From Deltaproteobacteria bacterium (GTDB taxonomy: Bacteria > Desulfobacterota > Syntrophorhabdia > Syntrophorhabdales > Syntrophorhabdaceae), in NCBI GenBank assembly GCA_022711595.1, contig JAKLET010000006.1, positions 1-64,000 on the forward strand: a stretch of DNA of 64,000 nt, read 5' to 3'. A program made the position numbers and the translations under genes. The stretch's first letter is position 1, and each line of letters opens with the position of its first letter. Shown here piece by piece: positions 3,721-15,133 of the stretch. Below the pieces are notes generated by a model. It was given only the letters and a program-made list of their open reading frames with translations. It did not search any database and was not told the DNA's origin.

Positions 3721-3797
<77 letters not shown>

Positions 3798-3866: not shown

Positions 3867-4522
3867 TCTGCTAACGTCCTGCTAACGGGATGGTGTTCAC
3901 AAGCGTTACAACCGGATCCACCACTGGTTCGGACCACTGGAAGGACACAGCACGCGGCGGTAGAGACTGGCGCCATGGACCCACCGGGCGCCCGCCGCGT
4001 AAAAATGCGTCTCGCTGGGCCCTGAAAAACCGACGGGCAGCAAGCAGCCCGTCACACAGCGGCCGGCAGTGCCGTCCTCGTGTGTGGGGGTGTACATCTC
4101 TCCCTCCTGCAGTCTATGGGGTACAACAACAGAATAAGCTGTCCAGATAAGCTCCGCCAAGGGTGAAACCGTGGAAAGCACATGGTGCAGCACAACGGGT
4201 CCTGGCCTTCGGGCGGACCCCGGGGTAAGGTGAGGTTAGCGCCCCCAGGCATTTTCACGTTATCGGAACTTTTGAGCTTTTCCCTCTGTATACGACGTTA
4301 CGACCAGTTGGAGAAATGCACTACGCGAACGCTCAGTTCGCGCGCGGGGAGGAAACCGGCGCAATCTTTACGCGACGGGGGGGACCCGCGCATTACAGCC
4401 CGGCGAAGCGAGACGCACATTCTTAAATTCTTAACGCGGCGGGCGCCCTGAGCCCAGAGGCGCCAGTTTCTAGCCGCCGCGTGCTGTCTGTCTCCCGTTA
4501 CCGTTAGCAGGACGTTAGCAGA
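3867..4522. repeat. Long imperfect inverted repeat (about 656 bp) downstream of tRNA-Arg
   Basis: The outer 21 bp are perfect: 3867-3887 is the reverse complement of 4502-4522, and each arm contains TGCTAACG twice, 11 bp apart. Inner blocks also pair. ACAGCACGCGGCGG near 3946-3960 and CGGGCGCCCGCCGCGT near 3985-4000 have inverted counterparts around 4460-4490 and 4430-4450. The CGTCTCGCT near 4008-4016 pairs with sequence near 4408-4416. The roughly 370-bp centre has no convincing ORF. The stretch 3798-4627 therefore holds no gene. Possible readings are a non-autonomous element, an integrase arm-site region that lost its integrase, or a structured replication or transfer site. Confidence 0.7.
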
Positions 4523-4750: not shown

Positions 4751-5848
4751 ATGGTCCCCAAAACGCTGAACCACAAAACCATCAAGAAACATAACGACCT
4801 CGTCCAGTCGAGCTATGCCCTGACAGATGTTGAGTACAACATTATTGATGCGGTCTTGGCTAACATTGATAAAGACGACACATCGTTAAAGCTGGTCCGA
4901 TTCCCGGTCCGGGAGTTTAACTCTATGTGTGGCCTGGACGGTGACGCATTTTACGGTTCCAGGGTGCGCAAGATACTCCAGAAGATCAACAACCATCCGA
5001 TTACTCTGAATGATAACAGCACGATTATCTGGTGGTTCGCGTCCGCTGAATACAAGCCCCAATCAGGCATCATAGAGCTCGAGCTGTCTGAGAAACTGAA
5101 ACCGTTTCTGCTGGATCTAAAGAAACACTACACACTGTTAAATCGTCAGGAGATGCGCCGCCTGTCTGGGCATTCAGGGTATGCCAAGCGTACTTATGAG
5201 CTCCTCAGGAGCGAATATTACAAAGGGGAATGGGTTGTGGACCTGGAGAAATTCAGGTGGCACCTTGGTCTGAAGGATAAGATCGAAGCGTTCGGGGATT
5301 TGAAGAGGCGGGTCCTGGATCCCGCGCTTAAACAGATCAACAGTGTGACATCTATGGATGTCGAACTGGAGCTGGGGAAGACCGGTCGTGCTGTCACCAG
5401 CCTCATATTTAAGATGTACCGGAAGGGTTCGAGAAAAAAGCGCCTCCATATTCCCGATGAATTCTATGACGTCCTGCCTCCACAGTTCCACATTCATCCT
5501 ATCTTCAATTGTATTGCTGACGAACTGGCACGGGATGGAGGTCTGAATATTACCCAGATGCTGAGCACCGTCCGCTATGCCCTGGCAACATGTAAGGATG
5601 ACAACAACATGGTCGGTTATCTCGGAACATGCATTCAGTCGGGCGTCGGCCTTGACTATAATCCGGGTCTCGATATGACGAACGTGAGACGGATTGATGT
5701 GGTCTTCCCAGGTGCCAGGGGTGATACGATTCTCACGACAGATGAAGACGGGACCCTTCGCGTTGAATCCGAATCCGGCGGTGAAATCGTGTTCCCTGCC
5801 GAGAAGGTCATGGAAATGCTGAAAAGAAAGCAGCTGATGAAGGTTTGA
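4751..5848 (+). CDS. Rep_3-family replication initiator protein
   Basis: The start ATG at 4751 has an AGGAGGTGA site at 4739-4747. The 365-aa protein has the two winged-helix layout of Rep_3 initiators (RepE/Pi type). The N-terminal part is VQSSYALTDVEYNIID, the central part has SGYAKRTYELLR, and a second winged helix has FGDLKRRVLDPALKQIN. The C-terminal part (about residues 225-365) is extra. The iterons immediately upstream support the assignment. It would bind them to start plasmid-type replication, so the element was, or still is, able to replicate. There is no obvious defect in the reading frame. Confidence 0.9.
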   Translation: MVPKTLNHKTIKKHNDLVQSSYALTDVEYNIIDAVLANIDKDDTSLKLVRFPVREFNSMCGLDGDAFYGSRVRKILQKINNHPITLNDNSTIIWWFASAEYKPQSGIIELELSEKLKPFLLDLKKHYTLLNRQEMRRLSGHSGYAKRTYELLRSEYYKGEWVVDLEKFRWHLGLKDKIEAFGDLKRRVLDPALKQINSVTSMDVELELGKTGRAVTSLIFKMYRKGSRKKRLHIPDEFYDVLPPQFHIHPIFNCIADELARDGGLNITQMLSTVRYALATCKDDNNMVGYLGTCIQSGVGLDYNPGLDMTNVRRIDVVFPGARGDTILTTDEDGTLRVESESGGEIVFPAEKVMEMLKRKQLMKV

Positions 5849-5940: not shown

Positions 5941-6000
5941 TGTATTCCCTTTTATTCCCATTATATCCCCTATATCTCCTTGTATTACCCTATATCCCAC
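5941..6000. repeat. Roughly 10-bp-phased pyrimidine-rich repeats
   Basis: Six short units of the type ATTCCC or ATATCCC recur at about 9-11 bp spacing between rep and the next promoter. The rest of the gap 5849-6031 shows no gene. The helical phasing could mark a protein-binding or bent-DNA site; its function is unknown. Confidence 0.4.
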
Positions 6001-6031: not shown

Positions 6032-6060
6032 TTGACATCGAGTCAGACAATGTCTATACT
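6032..6060 (+). promoter_or_regulatory. Consensus sigma-70 promoter
   Basis: TTGACA at 6032-6037 and TATACT at 6055-6060 are separated by exactly 17 bp. The predicted start is near 6067. This is the best vegetative promoter in the element and it drives the structured leader and probably the operon starting at 6293. Confidence 0.85.
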
Positions 6061-6066
6061 TAGTCT

Positions 6067-6290
6067 TACAGGGTCGGGACACCGACCCGGGCGAGACGGC
6101 ATAAGACCTACCGCTGGCGGTTCGTCGTAGACCCCGAAAAACCCCGTCAATCAGCAAGGGGGACGTGTCGCAGTTAATGGCTGACCGTCGTCAATATCAG
6201 GGCTCGAGAGAGAGTGGCGACGACGGTGTAGGGCAAGAGGACCGACCCGAGGCCCTCCTGATCATCTTTCGAAGATCAGGAGGGCCTTAT
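6067..6290 (+). ncRNA. Structured leader or small RNA with alternative pairing
   Basis: The region between a strong promoter and an intrinsic terminator carries no ORF. Near the 5' end, GGGTCGG (6071-6077), loop GACA and CCGACCC (6082-6088) form a 7-bp hairpin. An identical CCGACCC recurs at 6242-6248, just before the terminator stem, so the 5' strand could pair with either copy. Further internal dyads are present (ACCG/CGGT around 6109-6120). The terminator's 3' arm contains the ribosome site of the next gene. The layout fits a conditional leader or attenuator, or a roughly 225-nt plasmid RNA. No known family was recognised. Confidence 0.55.
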
Positions 6291-6292
6291 TT
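6251..6292 (+). terminator. Terminator hairpin that also holds a ribosome site
   Basis: A perfect 13-bp stem (GGCCCTCCTGATC at 6251-6263 with GATCAGGAGGGCC at 6274-6286) is followed by TTATTT. AGGAGG in the 3' arm (6279-6284) is the only good ribosome site for the ATG at 6293, so the folded hairpin would both end transcription and hide the site. Confidence 0.75.
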
Positions 6293-6523
6293 ATGCCGCA
6301 CAACGCAAATCCCAAACAATCCAAACAATATCTAGACGAGGAGGCCGCCGGCAAGCTGTGTCTCTCCACAAAACGGACCATGCAACAGTGGCGCTGGCGC
6401 AAGGTAGGGCCTCCTTATATTAAGCTCGGGTCCCCGATCAAAGGCAAGGGCAGAATCCTTTACGATCTCGACGACATTATCGCCTGGCTGGAATCCCAGA
6501 AAGTCAAGACAAAGGAGGTCTGA
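6293..6523 (+). CDS. Small helix-turn-helix (excisionase-like) DNA-binding protein
   Basis: This 76-aa protein contains YLDEEAAGKLCLSTKRTMQQW, WRKVGPPYIKLG and RILYDLDDIIAWL. That is the HTH_17/excisionase-like winged-helix pattern in which a helix-turn-helix is followed by a beta wing and a W-L helix. Such proteins direct excision or control plasmid and phage operons. Its ribosome site lies inside the upstream terminator stem. It is the first gene of a tightly packed operon reaching at least 9414. Confidence 0.75.
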   Translation: MPHNANPKQSKQYLDEEAAGKLCLSTKRTMQQWRWRKVGPPYIKLGSPIKGKGRILYDLDDIIAWLESQKVKTKEV

Positions 6524-6524
6524 T

Positions 6525-7253
6525 GTGACGATGATCCGTAACAACACATCGTGGCGACGTCAGCGGAAGGCACGGGACGGGGGTGACAGGATGCCCGAGA
6601 TAAGGGAAATCCTGAGCCACTACTGGCACGAAACGGAACGGATCCATCGTTGCCGGCCGCATATGAACTGGGGTCGGGAGGGGGCCATCGCGAAACGCAT
6701 CCTGAAAGCCGGGGTAGGTGTGGACACTATCAAAAACCACATAACCCAATCCGTCCTGTCCGCCAAAAAAGGTGAGGCCCGCCTAGCGCTCATCAATATT
6801 TTGACCACTTTCCAGGCGGGGATGACGACCACCAGCGCGCCGTCACAGGCCAGTGCCCGCGTCGTCTCCGACGTTCCCTTCGACGAGATCATCTCGTATC
6901 TCAACGAGAAGTCCGGATGCAAATTCGAACATACAGACCCTGCTATCAGGGGTATCATCGAGGCCCGGTGGAGCGAAGGCCGGCGTCTTGAGGATTTCCT
7001 GAAGGTCATAGACAAAATGGCCGCGAAATGGGGCTGGGACCCCAAGATGAGTAACTTCCTGAGGCCCTCCACGATCTTCGGTGAAAAGATGGGCGAATAT
7101 CTCGGTGCCAAGATCACCCCCGTGGATTTGGGACTCGTCTCTGCTGTCGGTTATCAATCTCACCTGGCGGGCCAGGAGTGGCTCCGCGAAGAAGAAGAAC
7201 GAGACCGCGCGGAACAGATGCGAGGGACGGGTTTTACAGAGGAGGAGGAATAA
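6525..7253 (+). CDS. Protein with phage-type Phg_2220_C C-terminal domain
   Basis: The GTG start at 6525 has AAGGAGG at 6511-6517. Residues about 120-215 match the phage conserved C-terminal domain (Phg_2220_C/TIGR02220): IISYLNEKSGCKFEHTD, EGRRLEDFLKVIDK and WGWDPKMSNFLRPSTIFG. The family occurs in phage and plasmid replication or early-gene modules, often attached to winged-helix domains; a direct role is not established. The N-terminal part (residues about 30-95) may be a DNA-binding region. Its stop overlaps the next start (TAATG). Confidence 0.75.
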   Translation: MTMIRNNTSWRRQRKARDGGDRMPEIREILSHYWHETERIHRCRPHMNWGREGAIAKRILKAGVGVDTIKNHITQSVLSAKKGEARLALINILTTFQAGMTTTSAPSQASARVVSDVPFDEIISYLNEKSGCKFEHTDPAIRGIIEARWSEGRRLEDFLKVIDKMAAKWGWDPKMSNFLRPSTIFGEKMGEYLGAKITPVDLGLVSAVGYQSHLAGQEWLREEEERDRAEQMRGTGFTEEEE

Positions 7254-7453: not shown

Positions 7454-8641
7454 ATGGGAACTAACGACAACATCGAGATCCGGCCGAAGTTTCGGGACCT
7501 CATCCCGAAGCTGGCCAAGCACGAGACTGAGAAGCTGGAGTCCAGCATTTTACAGGAGGGCATCCGGGAGCCCCTGGTCATCGCTGTGTTTGAGGAAACC
7601 AAGCACGGCATCACCACGACCGCCAAGGTCCTGCTGGACGGCCACCATCGCCACGCCATCGCGATCAACCACGGGTTGCCCTTCGACACCCGGGAGATTG
7701 AGTTCGAGGACGAGGATGCCGCGCTGGTGTGGGCAGTTGACACCCAGCTCGGCCGGAGGAATATCATACACCCGCTGGACCGGGTGAGCCTCCTCGAAAA
7801 AAAGCGGCCGGCATTGGAGAGACAGGCCGAGGCGCGTCAGTTGGCCGGGAAGGCGGAGGGTGACCTTACTCCGCTTTCGGAGCAAGGTCCCAAGAAACGC
7901 AGGGCTCCAACCGTGCTCGAGCAGCTTGCGCGCGAGGCCGGGATGGGCCGCACCACGTACGATGCCTGCCTCCTCATCCTGGGGAAGGGCATCCCCGCCC
8001 TGGTTGAATTTGTCAGGCAAGGGGACCTGTCGATCACGGGGGCGGGGAAGCTCCTGTCCCACACTCCCGGGCGGGGCATCATGAACGATGAGGAGCACCG
8101 CGCCTGGCAGCAAAGGCTTGTCGACAAAGTGCAGGGCCACCCGGACGCGATGCAGGCGGTCATCCGAAACATCAACTGGCGGGCCCGAGACTCAAAGCGC
8201 GAGTGTGACGCATGGGAGCGAGAGGCCGAGCGCCAGAGGAAAGAAGAAGAGGATTTTCAGGCCCGGGAGAAGCAGGATGAAGAGGACATCAAAAAGTGGC
8301 GGGAGGAGCTGGAGGCCGAGACCCCTGCGGAAGAGGAGCAGACCGGAACCGTGACGGAGGAAGAGACCAAGACCGCAGAGGAGGAAGCCGCACCGGAACA
8401 AGAAGAGGAAACCGAGACAGAGACAAAACAGACCGGAACCGTGACGGAGATCCCGAGGCCCCCGAGGCCCGGGGAAAACATCCGGGAGATCGTGGCCGCC
8501 ATCATCGACGCTGCCAGGGACATCCTGGCCGCCCGGGGCCTCGGAATCTCCGAAGATGGCGAGCTGGCCCTTGGTGATGCCGTCGAAGTCTGGGTCATCG
8601 AGTATGCACGCGACTACTATTATAAAGAACAGGTATCATAA
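7454..8641 (+). CDS. ParB/Srx-domain DNA-binding protein
   Basis: The 395-aa protein has an N-terminal ParB-like domain. KLESSILQEGIREPLVI and LLDGHHRHAIA correspond to the ParB box with its nucleotide-binding region, followed by TQLGRRN. A helix-turn-helix-like centre follows (LAREAGMGRTTYDACLLIL). Residues about 255-330 are very rich in Glu and Lys and contain QTGTVTE twice, suggesting a flexible linker that expanded by duplication. The C-terminal 60 residues are helical. Proteins of this class on plasmids act in regulation or segregation; no parA lies beside it here. The start has AGGAGG upstream, and the stop overlaps the ankyrin gene start. Confidence 0.8.
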   Translation: MGTNDNIEIRPKFRDLIPKLAKHETEKLESSILQEGIREPLVIAVFEETKHGITTTAKVLLDGHHRHAIAINHGLPFDTREIEFEDEDAALVWAVDTQLGRRNIIHPLDRVSLLEKKRPALERQAEARQLAGKAEGDLTPLSEQGPKKRRAPTVLEQLAREAGMGRTTYDACLLILGKGIPALVEFVRQGDLSITGAGKLLSHTPGRGIMNDEEHRAWQQRLVDKVQGHPDAMQAVIRNINWRARDSKRECDAWEREAERQRKEEEDFQAREKQDEEDIKKWREELEAETPAEEEQTGTVTEEETKTAEEEAAPEQEEETETETKQTGTVTEIPRPPRPGENIREIVAAIIDAARDILAARGLGISEDGELALGDAVEVWVIEYARDYYYKEQVS

Positions 8642-9414
8642 TGGACAAGAACAAAAAAAAGCTCATCACATTGGCGAGGGCGGTAAAGGGGGGGAAGGTC
8701 AACGCGACCCGAAAGCTCCTCGAGGCCGGCGCGGACCCGAACCGCCCCGCCAACACATACTATCGGCTGACATATCTTTACCTGGCTGCCCGCCGCGGTT
8801 ACCTCTCCATCGCCCGTCTTCTTATCGAGCACGGGGCGGATCCGAGCGCACAGGATAAAAATGGTTGGACGCCCCTCCACGAGGCGTGTTTCCGTGGCCA
8901 TGCCGCCATCGTCCGTCTTCTCCACGAGGCCGGGGCGGACGTGAAGACGAAGGATACACGCGGCACCACTCCCCTCCACTGGGCATGCGCCTACGGCCAC
9001 ACCGACATCGCCCGCCTGTTGCTGGAAAAGGGCGCGGACGTGAACGCGAAGGACGGGGATGGGGAGACCCCGCTGCATGGGGCGGCCAGGGTAATGGAGT
9101 ACAAACTCGTCCACCTCCTCCTCGACCACGGGGCGGACGTGAACGTGAAGGGCAACGGCGACCGCACCCCCCTCCACCGGGTAATGAACAACATCGAGGG
9201 TCAGCGGAGAGCGCGGAGAACGGAGACCGTCCGGCTCCTCCTCGAGCACGGCGCAGAGGGCGGAACCAGGGACAGGGACGGCGGGACACCGTTGGATCGT
9301 GTGCTTTCTCTCCCCCTCGACCACCCCCACCGCGAGGAGCTCATCGACCTGTTCCGGGAGTACGCCCCGGAGGCCGTGATGGAGGCGTGGTGCACGCAGC
9401 AAGAGGCTATCTAA
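8641..9414 (+). CDS. Ankyrin-repeat protein
   Basis: This 257-aa protein is built of about six ankyrin repeats. Examples are GWTPLHEACFRGHAAIVRLL, TPLHWACAYGHTDIARLLL and DGETPLHGAAR; each ends in GADV-type turns. The C-terminal tail has HREELIDLFREYAPEAVME. Close versions of that tail occur in the ankyrin gene at 14606 and in remnants near 11467, so it is a family trait of this element. There is no signal peptide, so it is a probable cytoplasmic protein-binding scaffold. It begins at the overlapping TAATG of the ParB-like gene, so it is in the same operon. Confidence 0.85.
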   Translation: MDKNKKKLITLARAVKGGKVNATRKLLEAGADPNRPANTYYRLTYLYLAARRGYLSIARLLIEHGADPSAQDKNGWTPLHEACFRGHAAIVRLLHEAGADVKTKDTRGTTPLHWACAYGHTDIARLLLEKGADVNAKDGDGETPLHGAARVMEYKLVHLLLDHGADVNVKGNGDRTPLHRVMNNIEGQRRARRTETVRLLLEHGAEGGTRDRDGGTPLDRVLSLPLDHPHREELIDLFREYAPEAVMEAWCTQQEAI

Positions 9415-14417: not shown

Positions 14418-14591
14418 ATGATGTACATGGACGTGCGCGAACTGAAGGCACTTTTCGGGGAAGAGAGGGTGGATTACCTCCTGACGCAGAGGAGGATCCC
14501 TCTCGCCAAAGTTAATGACGACCTCGTTGTGATGGATAACCTCTACAGGCTCGAGGAGGAACTCACGAAGGACAACGAGGACCTTATGTGA
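14418..14591 (+). CDS. Small hypothetical protein
   Basis: This 57-aa protein has AAGGAGGA at 14405-14412 before the ATG at 14418 (a second ATG follows directly). The sequence MDVRELKALFGEERVDYLLT followed by QRRIPLAKVNDDLVVMD has the look of a short winged-helix or excisionase-like DNA-binding protein, but the match is weak. Confidence 0.5.
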   Translation: MMYMDVRELKALFGEERVDYLLTQRRIPLAKVNDDLVVMDNLYRLEEELTKDNEDLM

Positions 14592-14605
14592 GAGGGAGGA
14601 AGATA

Positions 14606-15133
14606 ATGTCAGACGATCTTCACGAAGCAATTGATACGGGGTGGATCGAATGGGTCAGGCAGCTCATCGAGGGTGGTGCGGACGTAAACGCGACGGACAG
14701 GCGCGGGGTGACGCCGCTCCAGGCCGCCATTGAGCACGGCCAACTCGATATCGTCCGCCTCCTCAGCGAGAAGGGGGCCGACATGAACGTCAGGGACGTC
14801 CGCGGCTGGACTCTCCTCGCCCTGGCCTCTGCCCTCGGGCGGCCCGATATCATCGGGCTCCTCCTCTCCCACGGCGCGGACGTGAACGAAAGGAATGACA
14901 TCGATGACACGGCGCTCCACTGGGCATGCACCTATGCCCGCCCCGGGGCGGTCCGCCTCCTCCTTTCCCACGGGGCCGACGCGAACGCCATGAGCATGAG
15001 GGGCAGCACGCCTATCGACATGGTACTCCAGCTCTCCCCGGACAATGCCGCCCGGGAGGAGATTCTGGATCTCTTCAGGGAATACGCACCGGAGACGGTG
15101 ATGGAGAAGTTTTGCGGGGGACCCGACAGATGA
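14606..15133 (+). CDS. Ankyrin-repeat protein (paralog of the 8641 gene)
   Basis: The start ATG at 14606 has GAGGGAGGA upstream; an in-frame ATG at 14588 lacks a site. The 175-aa protein has four to five ankyrin repeats (GVTPLQAAIEHGQLDIVRLL, GWTLLALASALGRPDIIGLL, TALHWACTYARPGAVRLLL). It carries the same tail as the 8641 protein: REEILDLFREYAPETVME. A cytoplasmic protein-interaction role is inferred. Confidence 0.8.
   Translation: MSDDLHEAIDTGWIEWVRQLIEGGADVNATDRRGVTPLQAAIEHGQLDIVRLLSEKGADMNVRDVRGWTLLALASALGRPDIIGLLLSHGADVNERNDIDDTALHWACTYARPGAVRLLLSHGADANAMSMRGSTPIDMVLQLSPDNAAREEILDLFREYAPETVMEKFCGGPDR

Follow-up and report, generated by a model that had tools for sequence, protein, structure and literature searches.

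A structured leader in a plasmid-like element

The HTH gene of a plasmid-like element, carried by a genome of the Syntrophorhabdus type (G000; 3.5 Mb), is preceded by a structured RNA leader, which raises the question of where such an RNA came from and what it might do for the element that carries it. The element lies downstream of a tRNA-Arg gene (positions 3721-3797) in the window, by which we mean the whole 64,000-nt stretch of DNA that was analysed (C55:1-64000), and the same tRNA-Arg also precedes related elements in genomes G010 and G005. The only repeat of this tRNA-Arg(CCG) gene found in the window is a 12-nt copy of its 3´ part, at 4435, so that a clear attachment-site repeat is missing. 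Upstream of the leader is a gene for a Rep_3-type replication initiator (4751-5848, + strand; Pfam PF01051, 1.4e-31, and PF21205, 2.8e-15), separated from the leader promoter by imperfect 10-bp iteron-like repeats (TATTCCCTTA; 5941-6000, + strand), which are possible iterons with a putative role in an origin. Downstream, also on the + strand, are the HTH_17 or excisionase-like (AlpA-like) gene of 76 aa (6293-6523) and, second in the operon, a replication-protein-like gene (Phg_2220_C, 6525-7253). Further along, the element carries a ParB-like gene, ankyrin-repeat genes and genes for a NikA-like protein, a relaxase and a resolvase, where the ParB-like and ankyrin labels of genes with no Pfam match were read from sequence. 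Several ankyrin-repeat proteins are encoded (8641-9414 and 14588-15133), and one ankyrin-repeat protein of the element matches the PADLOC candidate PDC-M72A (1.2e-36).

Homologous leaders were found in only two other elements, G010:C41 and G005:C181, whose genomes belong to the same genus; blastn of the leader against plasmids and phages gave no match, and neither did exact core patterns in viral contigs. Among the three elements, the scaffold portion of the leader is 93-98% identical, while the adjoining HTH and Phg_2220_C genes are ~73-83% identical at the DNA level. At fourfold-degenerate sites, identity is 41-75% for the HTH gene (three pairs) and 63% for the ParB-like gene, the latter for the window and G005 only, with the G010 comparisons left out because different genes were aligned. 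In the otherwise closely related G005 element, Rep_3 has been swapped for a clearly different Rep protein and the leader and operon are kept, indicating that the leader has been conserved while the background around it recombined. A one-time recombination could mimic part of this conservation, with three leaders from one genus and one tRNA-Arg site. The original prediction of a structured RNA before the HTH gene of a plasmid-type operon was borne out; the RNA is conserved, and the operon lies beside a Rep_3 initiator.

Homology to TnpB right ends

Guide RNAs of TnpB normally derive from the tnpB transcript and act in the service of the transposon. A covariance model built from the three leaders (R1) was run on 395 genomes of the phylum and 12 genomes of the genus, and its matches led to such transposons. 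One match (L026; 26.5 bits, E 8.5e-4 per genome) starts at the end of a decayed tnpB frame (tblastn 4e-7), another (L032) coincides with the 3´ end of a tnpB gene adjoining a Y1 tnpA gene, and a third (L028, positions 1501-1639, - strand; from G407:C4) ends in a typical IS200/IS605 right-end hairpin followed by UGUCAAA, with no tnpB detectable upstream of it. Loci annotated as 'RNA-guided endonuclease TnpB' were then collected on the basis of their protein similarity to the TnpB of L032; in one of these, from Rhodothermus marinus (L087), R1 scored 25.9 bits at the right end, the expected place. A further R1 match (L025, 26.8 bits) covers P1 and its flanks with the scaffold middle missing and was set aside.

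In the alignment of nine TnpB right ends, 97.3% of cells are paired, as against 37-50% in slid controls. Double-sided changes occur in nine pairs and 29 cells, a strong covariation that none of 500 shuffles reached. A second model built from these nine right ends (R2) matched the three leaders at full length with 28.2, 26.5 and 19.7 bits, ending at UGUC-GC-AG. In the window, the next match after the leader scored 10 bits, and over the whole 3.5 Mb of G000 the leader was the only match at E <= 0.1 (E 7.1e-4), as it likewise was over the whole of G005. Since the R2 training set includes L032 and L028, which were found by R1, the non-circular direction is the match of R1 to L087. A profile built on the sequences of seven TnpB right ends alone did not detect the window leader; the relation between leader and TnpB right ends is therefore distant and rests on structure and on intermediates. 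A 19-nt pattern derived from the leader had only one match in 2.9 million viral contigs (L120; IMGVR_UViG_3300013383_000027), a solo decayed TnpB right end with no tnpB. This copy (5097-5240) consists of the last tnpB codons and the scaffold, ends with GUGUCAAG and is located intergenically in a large phage genome.

The helices and the pseudoknot of the leader are those of the TnpB scaffold and are kept in all three leaders. At the end of the scaffold, the UCAA of UGUCAA is invariant in the nine TnpB right ends, and all three leaders read UGUCGC. No Rfam 15 family matches the leader at either gathering or permissive thresholds, and a C4/P4-type immunity RNA found no support from Rfam. On the strength of these comparisons, the leader very probably originates from a TnpB right end. 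By homology it is omegaRNA-derived, and we file it outside the canonical omegaRNAs because it has no overlap with the 3´ end of a tnpB gene and a transposon right end, and no UGUCAA end.

Scaffold, putative guide and promoter

The omegaRNA-type scaffold, delimited by the reciprocal R1 and R2 matches, spans 6071-6171 on the + strand. It begins with P1 (GGGUCGG/CCGACCC, 6071-6088), whose homologue in TnpB right ends is the 5´ hairpin, followed by P2 (GGG/CCC, 6089-6091 with 6133-6135), the TnpB counterpart of which covaries, and, within P2, by the pseudoknot 5´ strand (GGCAU, 6098-6102), which also has a TnpB counterpart, and by the P4 hairpin (ACCG/CGGU, 6110-6121), which has one mismatch in G005. 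The P5 hairpin (CCCC/GGGG, 6142-6161) is the counterpart of the transposon right-end hairpin. The pseudoknot 3´ strand (GUGUC, 6165-6169) is directly 5´ of the putative guide, the same place in which the pseudoknot adjoins the guide in the structure of the ISDra2 TnpB omegaRNA (PMC10097598). All five pseudoknot pairs form in all three leaders, with the variable sites 6099 and 6101 still pairing, and pairing is kept at four of the seven variable sites of the scaffold. The whole leader folds more stably than shuffled sequences (z -4.3), an excess due mostly to the two hairpins downstream of the scaffold (z -2.4 for 6184-6227 and -7.7 for 6250-6287); the first 116 nt fold like shuffles (z -0.34).

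Based on the placement of the pseudoknot, and with the ISDra2 structure as template (PMC10097598), the guide is predicted to start at 6172. The following 12 nt (AGUUAAUGGCUG; 6172-6183, + strand) are invariant in the alignment of the three leaders, which is the length expected for a guide given that ISDra2 TnpB relies on ~12 guide bases (PMC10097598; PMC10278001). The first variable base past this stretch is 6184, at guide position 13, where the P6 hairpin begins (6184-6227; 6184-6192 with 6219-6227). Two P6 pairs are changed on both sides, which is weak covariation for three sequences, with 59 of 500 shuffles reaching the same. No perfect match to the 12-nt guide was found elsewhere in G000, G005 or G010, and 12 nt are too short for a search for foreign targets. 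A 14-nt match to the guide region at G000:C1:57017 was put down to chance, as it lies inside a substrate-binding-protein gene and is not common to the relatives. We also considered and rejected a conserved leader peptide (GTG at 6165 or ATG at 6177), whose frame is open in the window and has early stops in G010 and G005.

The consensus promoter of the original prediction was confirmed as a sigma-70 promoter on the + strand (TTGACA at 6032-6037, a 17-bp spacer and TATACT at 6055-6060), with 11 of 12 consensus positions matched and identical spacing in G005 and G010. Transcription is expected to start at ~6067-6068, 3 nt 5´ of the scaffold. For comparison, TnpB normally generates the 5´ end of its omegaRNA through processing of its own mRNA (PMC10278001). 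A GACAT-N11-ATGTC inverted repeat within the promoter (6034-6054), which is not kept in G005 and G010, is a possible operator.

A hairpin that hides the ribosome site of the HTH gene

The last hairpin of the leader (6250-6287, + strand) has 17-bp arms with one mismatch and a 4-nt loop (-29.9 kcal/mol) and is conserved among the leaders. As had been proposed, it hides the ribosome site of the HTH gene: AGGAGGG (6278-6284) is in the 3´ arm, 9 nt before the ATG at 6293. The same hairpin had been described as a 13-bp terminator. The strong hairpin was confirmed; a role as terminator was not, as the T tract is poor in the window (TTATTTATG) and the hairpin was not listed in a terminator scan of the + strand of the window. 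In G005 the T tract is good (TTTTTC), and the hairpin may end the leader RNA. A paralogous pair of HTH and Phg_2220_C genes in G010 (C53:1-1596) is leaderless and has a close promoter and an open ribosome site. This contig represents a second element in G010; as in G010:C41, the Phg_2220_C domain is doubled in one frame.

TnpB proteins in the host genomes and the genus

Searches for PF07282 or PF01385 proteins in G000 and G005 gave none, and so no effector was identified there. No tnpB overlaps the leader, none was found in the window or elsewhere in its own genome, and no tldR-type gene for a nuclease-dead TnpB-like protein was found near the leader, its genome having no PF07282 or PF01385 protein. 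Within the genus, tnpB is present in genomes G009 and G003 and decayed in G010, where the TnpB fragment on C53 had no R1 match in its locus. A TnpB protein search of 385 genomes of the phylum at 1e-25 gave no match, with a cut-off too strict to be informative.

Possible roles of the leader RNA

We put at about even the chance that the leader derives from a TnpB omegaRNA, has been domesticated as a stand-alone RNA and loads TnpB supplied in trans, acting as a guide or a decoy. The 5´ part of the RNA would fold as an omegaRNA with a 12-nt guide and load a TnpB-family protein, which would be provided by IS200/IS605 elements gained and lost in this genus. The loaded protein would then either be steered to foreign DNA that is absent from this genome, for example a competing element, or be occupied by the RNA as a decoy. 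We propose that the last hairpin ends most transcripts and masks the ribosome site, such that the HTH/replication operon would be expressed weakly, by read-through. The leader may have a part in copy-number or transfer control, as originally suggested. In a more specific version, which we offer only tentatively, the mobile element would carry a TnpB-less guide RNA gene with a conserved guide. Its product would be a parasitic RNA that redirects or disarms ('anti-TnpB') the TnpB of resident transposons, with a link to the control of the element's replication operon.

Such an RNA would differ in several respects from the systems it resembles. With the TnpB omegaRNA (or reRNA) of IS200/IS605 elements of the ISDra2 type (PMC10097598; PMC10278001) it shares a homologous scaffold, a 5´ hairpin, a guide-adjacent pseudoknot and a guide directly 3´; unlike these RNAs, the leader has no overlapping tnpB, has its own sigma-70 promoter and UGUCGC in place of UGUCAA, carries a putative guide that is the same in different elements and precedes a hairpin, and leads a replication operon. 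TldR systems, which pair a nuclease-dead TnpB with a gRNA, likewise represent domesticated TnpB guide RNAs on mobile elements, and their short guides suffice, with a 6-nt seed reported (PMC13418256), whereas no tldR gene was found in the leader's genome and no target promoter was found. If the decoy reading is true, the leader would also resemble RNA anti-CRISPRs (Racrs; PMC10651486; PMC11656645), which are solitary guide-RNA mimics on effector-less mobile elements, except that it concerns TnpB rather than Cas and that decoy inhibition is putative. If this is true, the loss of the nuclease gene, the gain of a promoter and a new place at the head of a plasmid-type replication operon would make this guide RNA a case of RNA-only domestication, equivalent for TnpB to what solitary CRISPR repeats and RNA anti-CRISPRs are for CRISPR systems. 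The findings suggest the takeover of a CRISPR-like guide RNA by a mobile element for a new use. This points to a general search for omegaRNA scaffolds that have no tnpB, which is feasible with covariance models such as R2.

The strongest alternative, if a less likely one, is that the omegaRNA-derived leader acts only in cis, as a 5´ UTR of stable structure that, with its ribosome-hiding hairpin, determines how strongly the HTH/replication operon is expressed, and involves no TnpB. The loss of both UGUCAA and the effector makes such a role possible, and it fits with the lack of tnpB in G000 and G005, the lack of a guide target in the three genomes, the conservation of the ribosome-site hairpin and the leaderless paralogue in G010:C53, which expresses this gene pair with an open ribosome site and a promoter close by. 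A role in cis alone leaves unexplained why the pseudoknot and the next 12 bases were kept, and why a promoter places the RNA start at the edge of the scaffold, and we weigh action in trans, as guide or decoy, slightly above it.

It is less probable still that the leader is a relic, the functionless right end left by an IS200/IS605 copy, now decayed, that was inserted upstream of the operon in the ancestor. Decayed right ends with no intact tnpB do occur elsewhere (L026, L028 and L120), but the scaffold identity of 93-98% against 41-75% at the fourfold sites of the HTH gene, the conserved promoter and the pairing kept at four of seven variable scaffold sites all argue against a functionless sequence. 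That the leader is an ordinary antisense RNA acting in trans, in which the 12-nt segment would be the seed against an mRNA and the scaffold would provide stability only, is very unlikely: the segment is single-stranded between structured domains in the predicted fold, but no complement to it within one mismatch was found in the window, and the homology of the scaffold would be left unexplained.

We give hardly any credence to the switch of the original prediction, in which GGGTCGG (6071-6077) would alternate between CCGACCC at 6082-6088 and an identical copy at 6242-6248 and so control the terminator and the ribosome site. All three sequence elements are present in the window, but both relatives read CTACACC at the second copy, breaking three of the seven alternative pairs with none compensated. 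Conserved pairing in homologues had been named as the test for this competition, and with the distal partner missing there the competing-stem switch fails. A likeness to the attenuators and riboswitches of Rfam 15 is confined to a 5´ leader with a terminator or ribosome-site hairpin, as no family matched, the alternative stem is not conserved and we saw no evidence for a ligand switch. The proximal hairpin is common to TnpB right ends, and by this homology the 5´ stem is part of a scaffold shared with TnpB omegaRNAs, a connection that the original prediction had not suspected.
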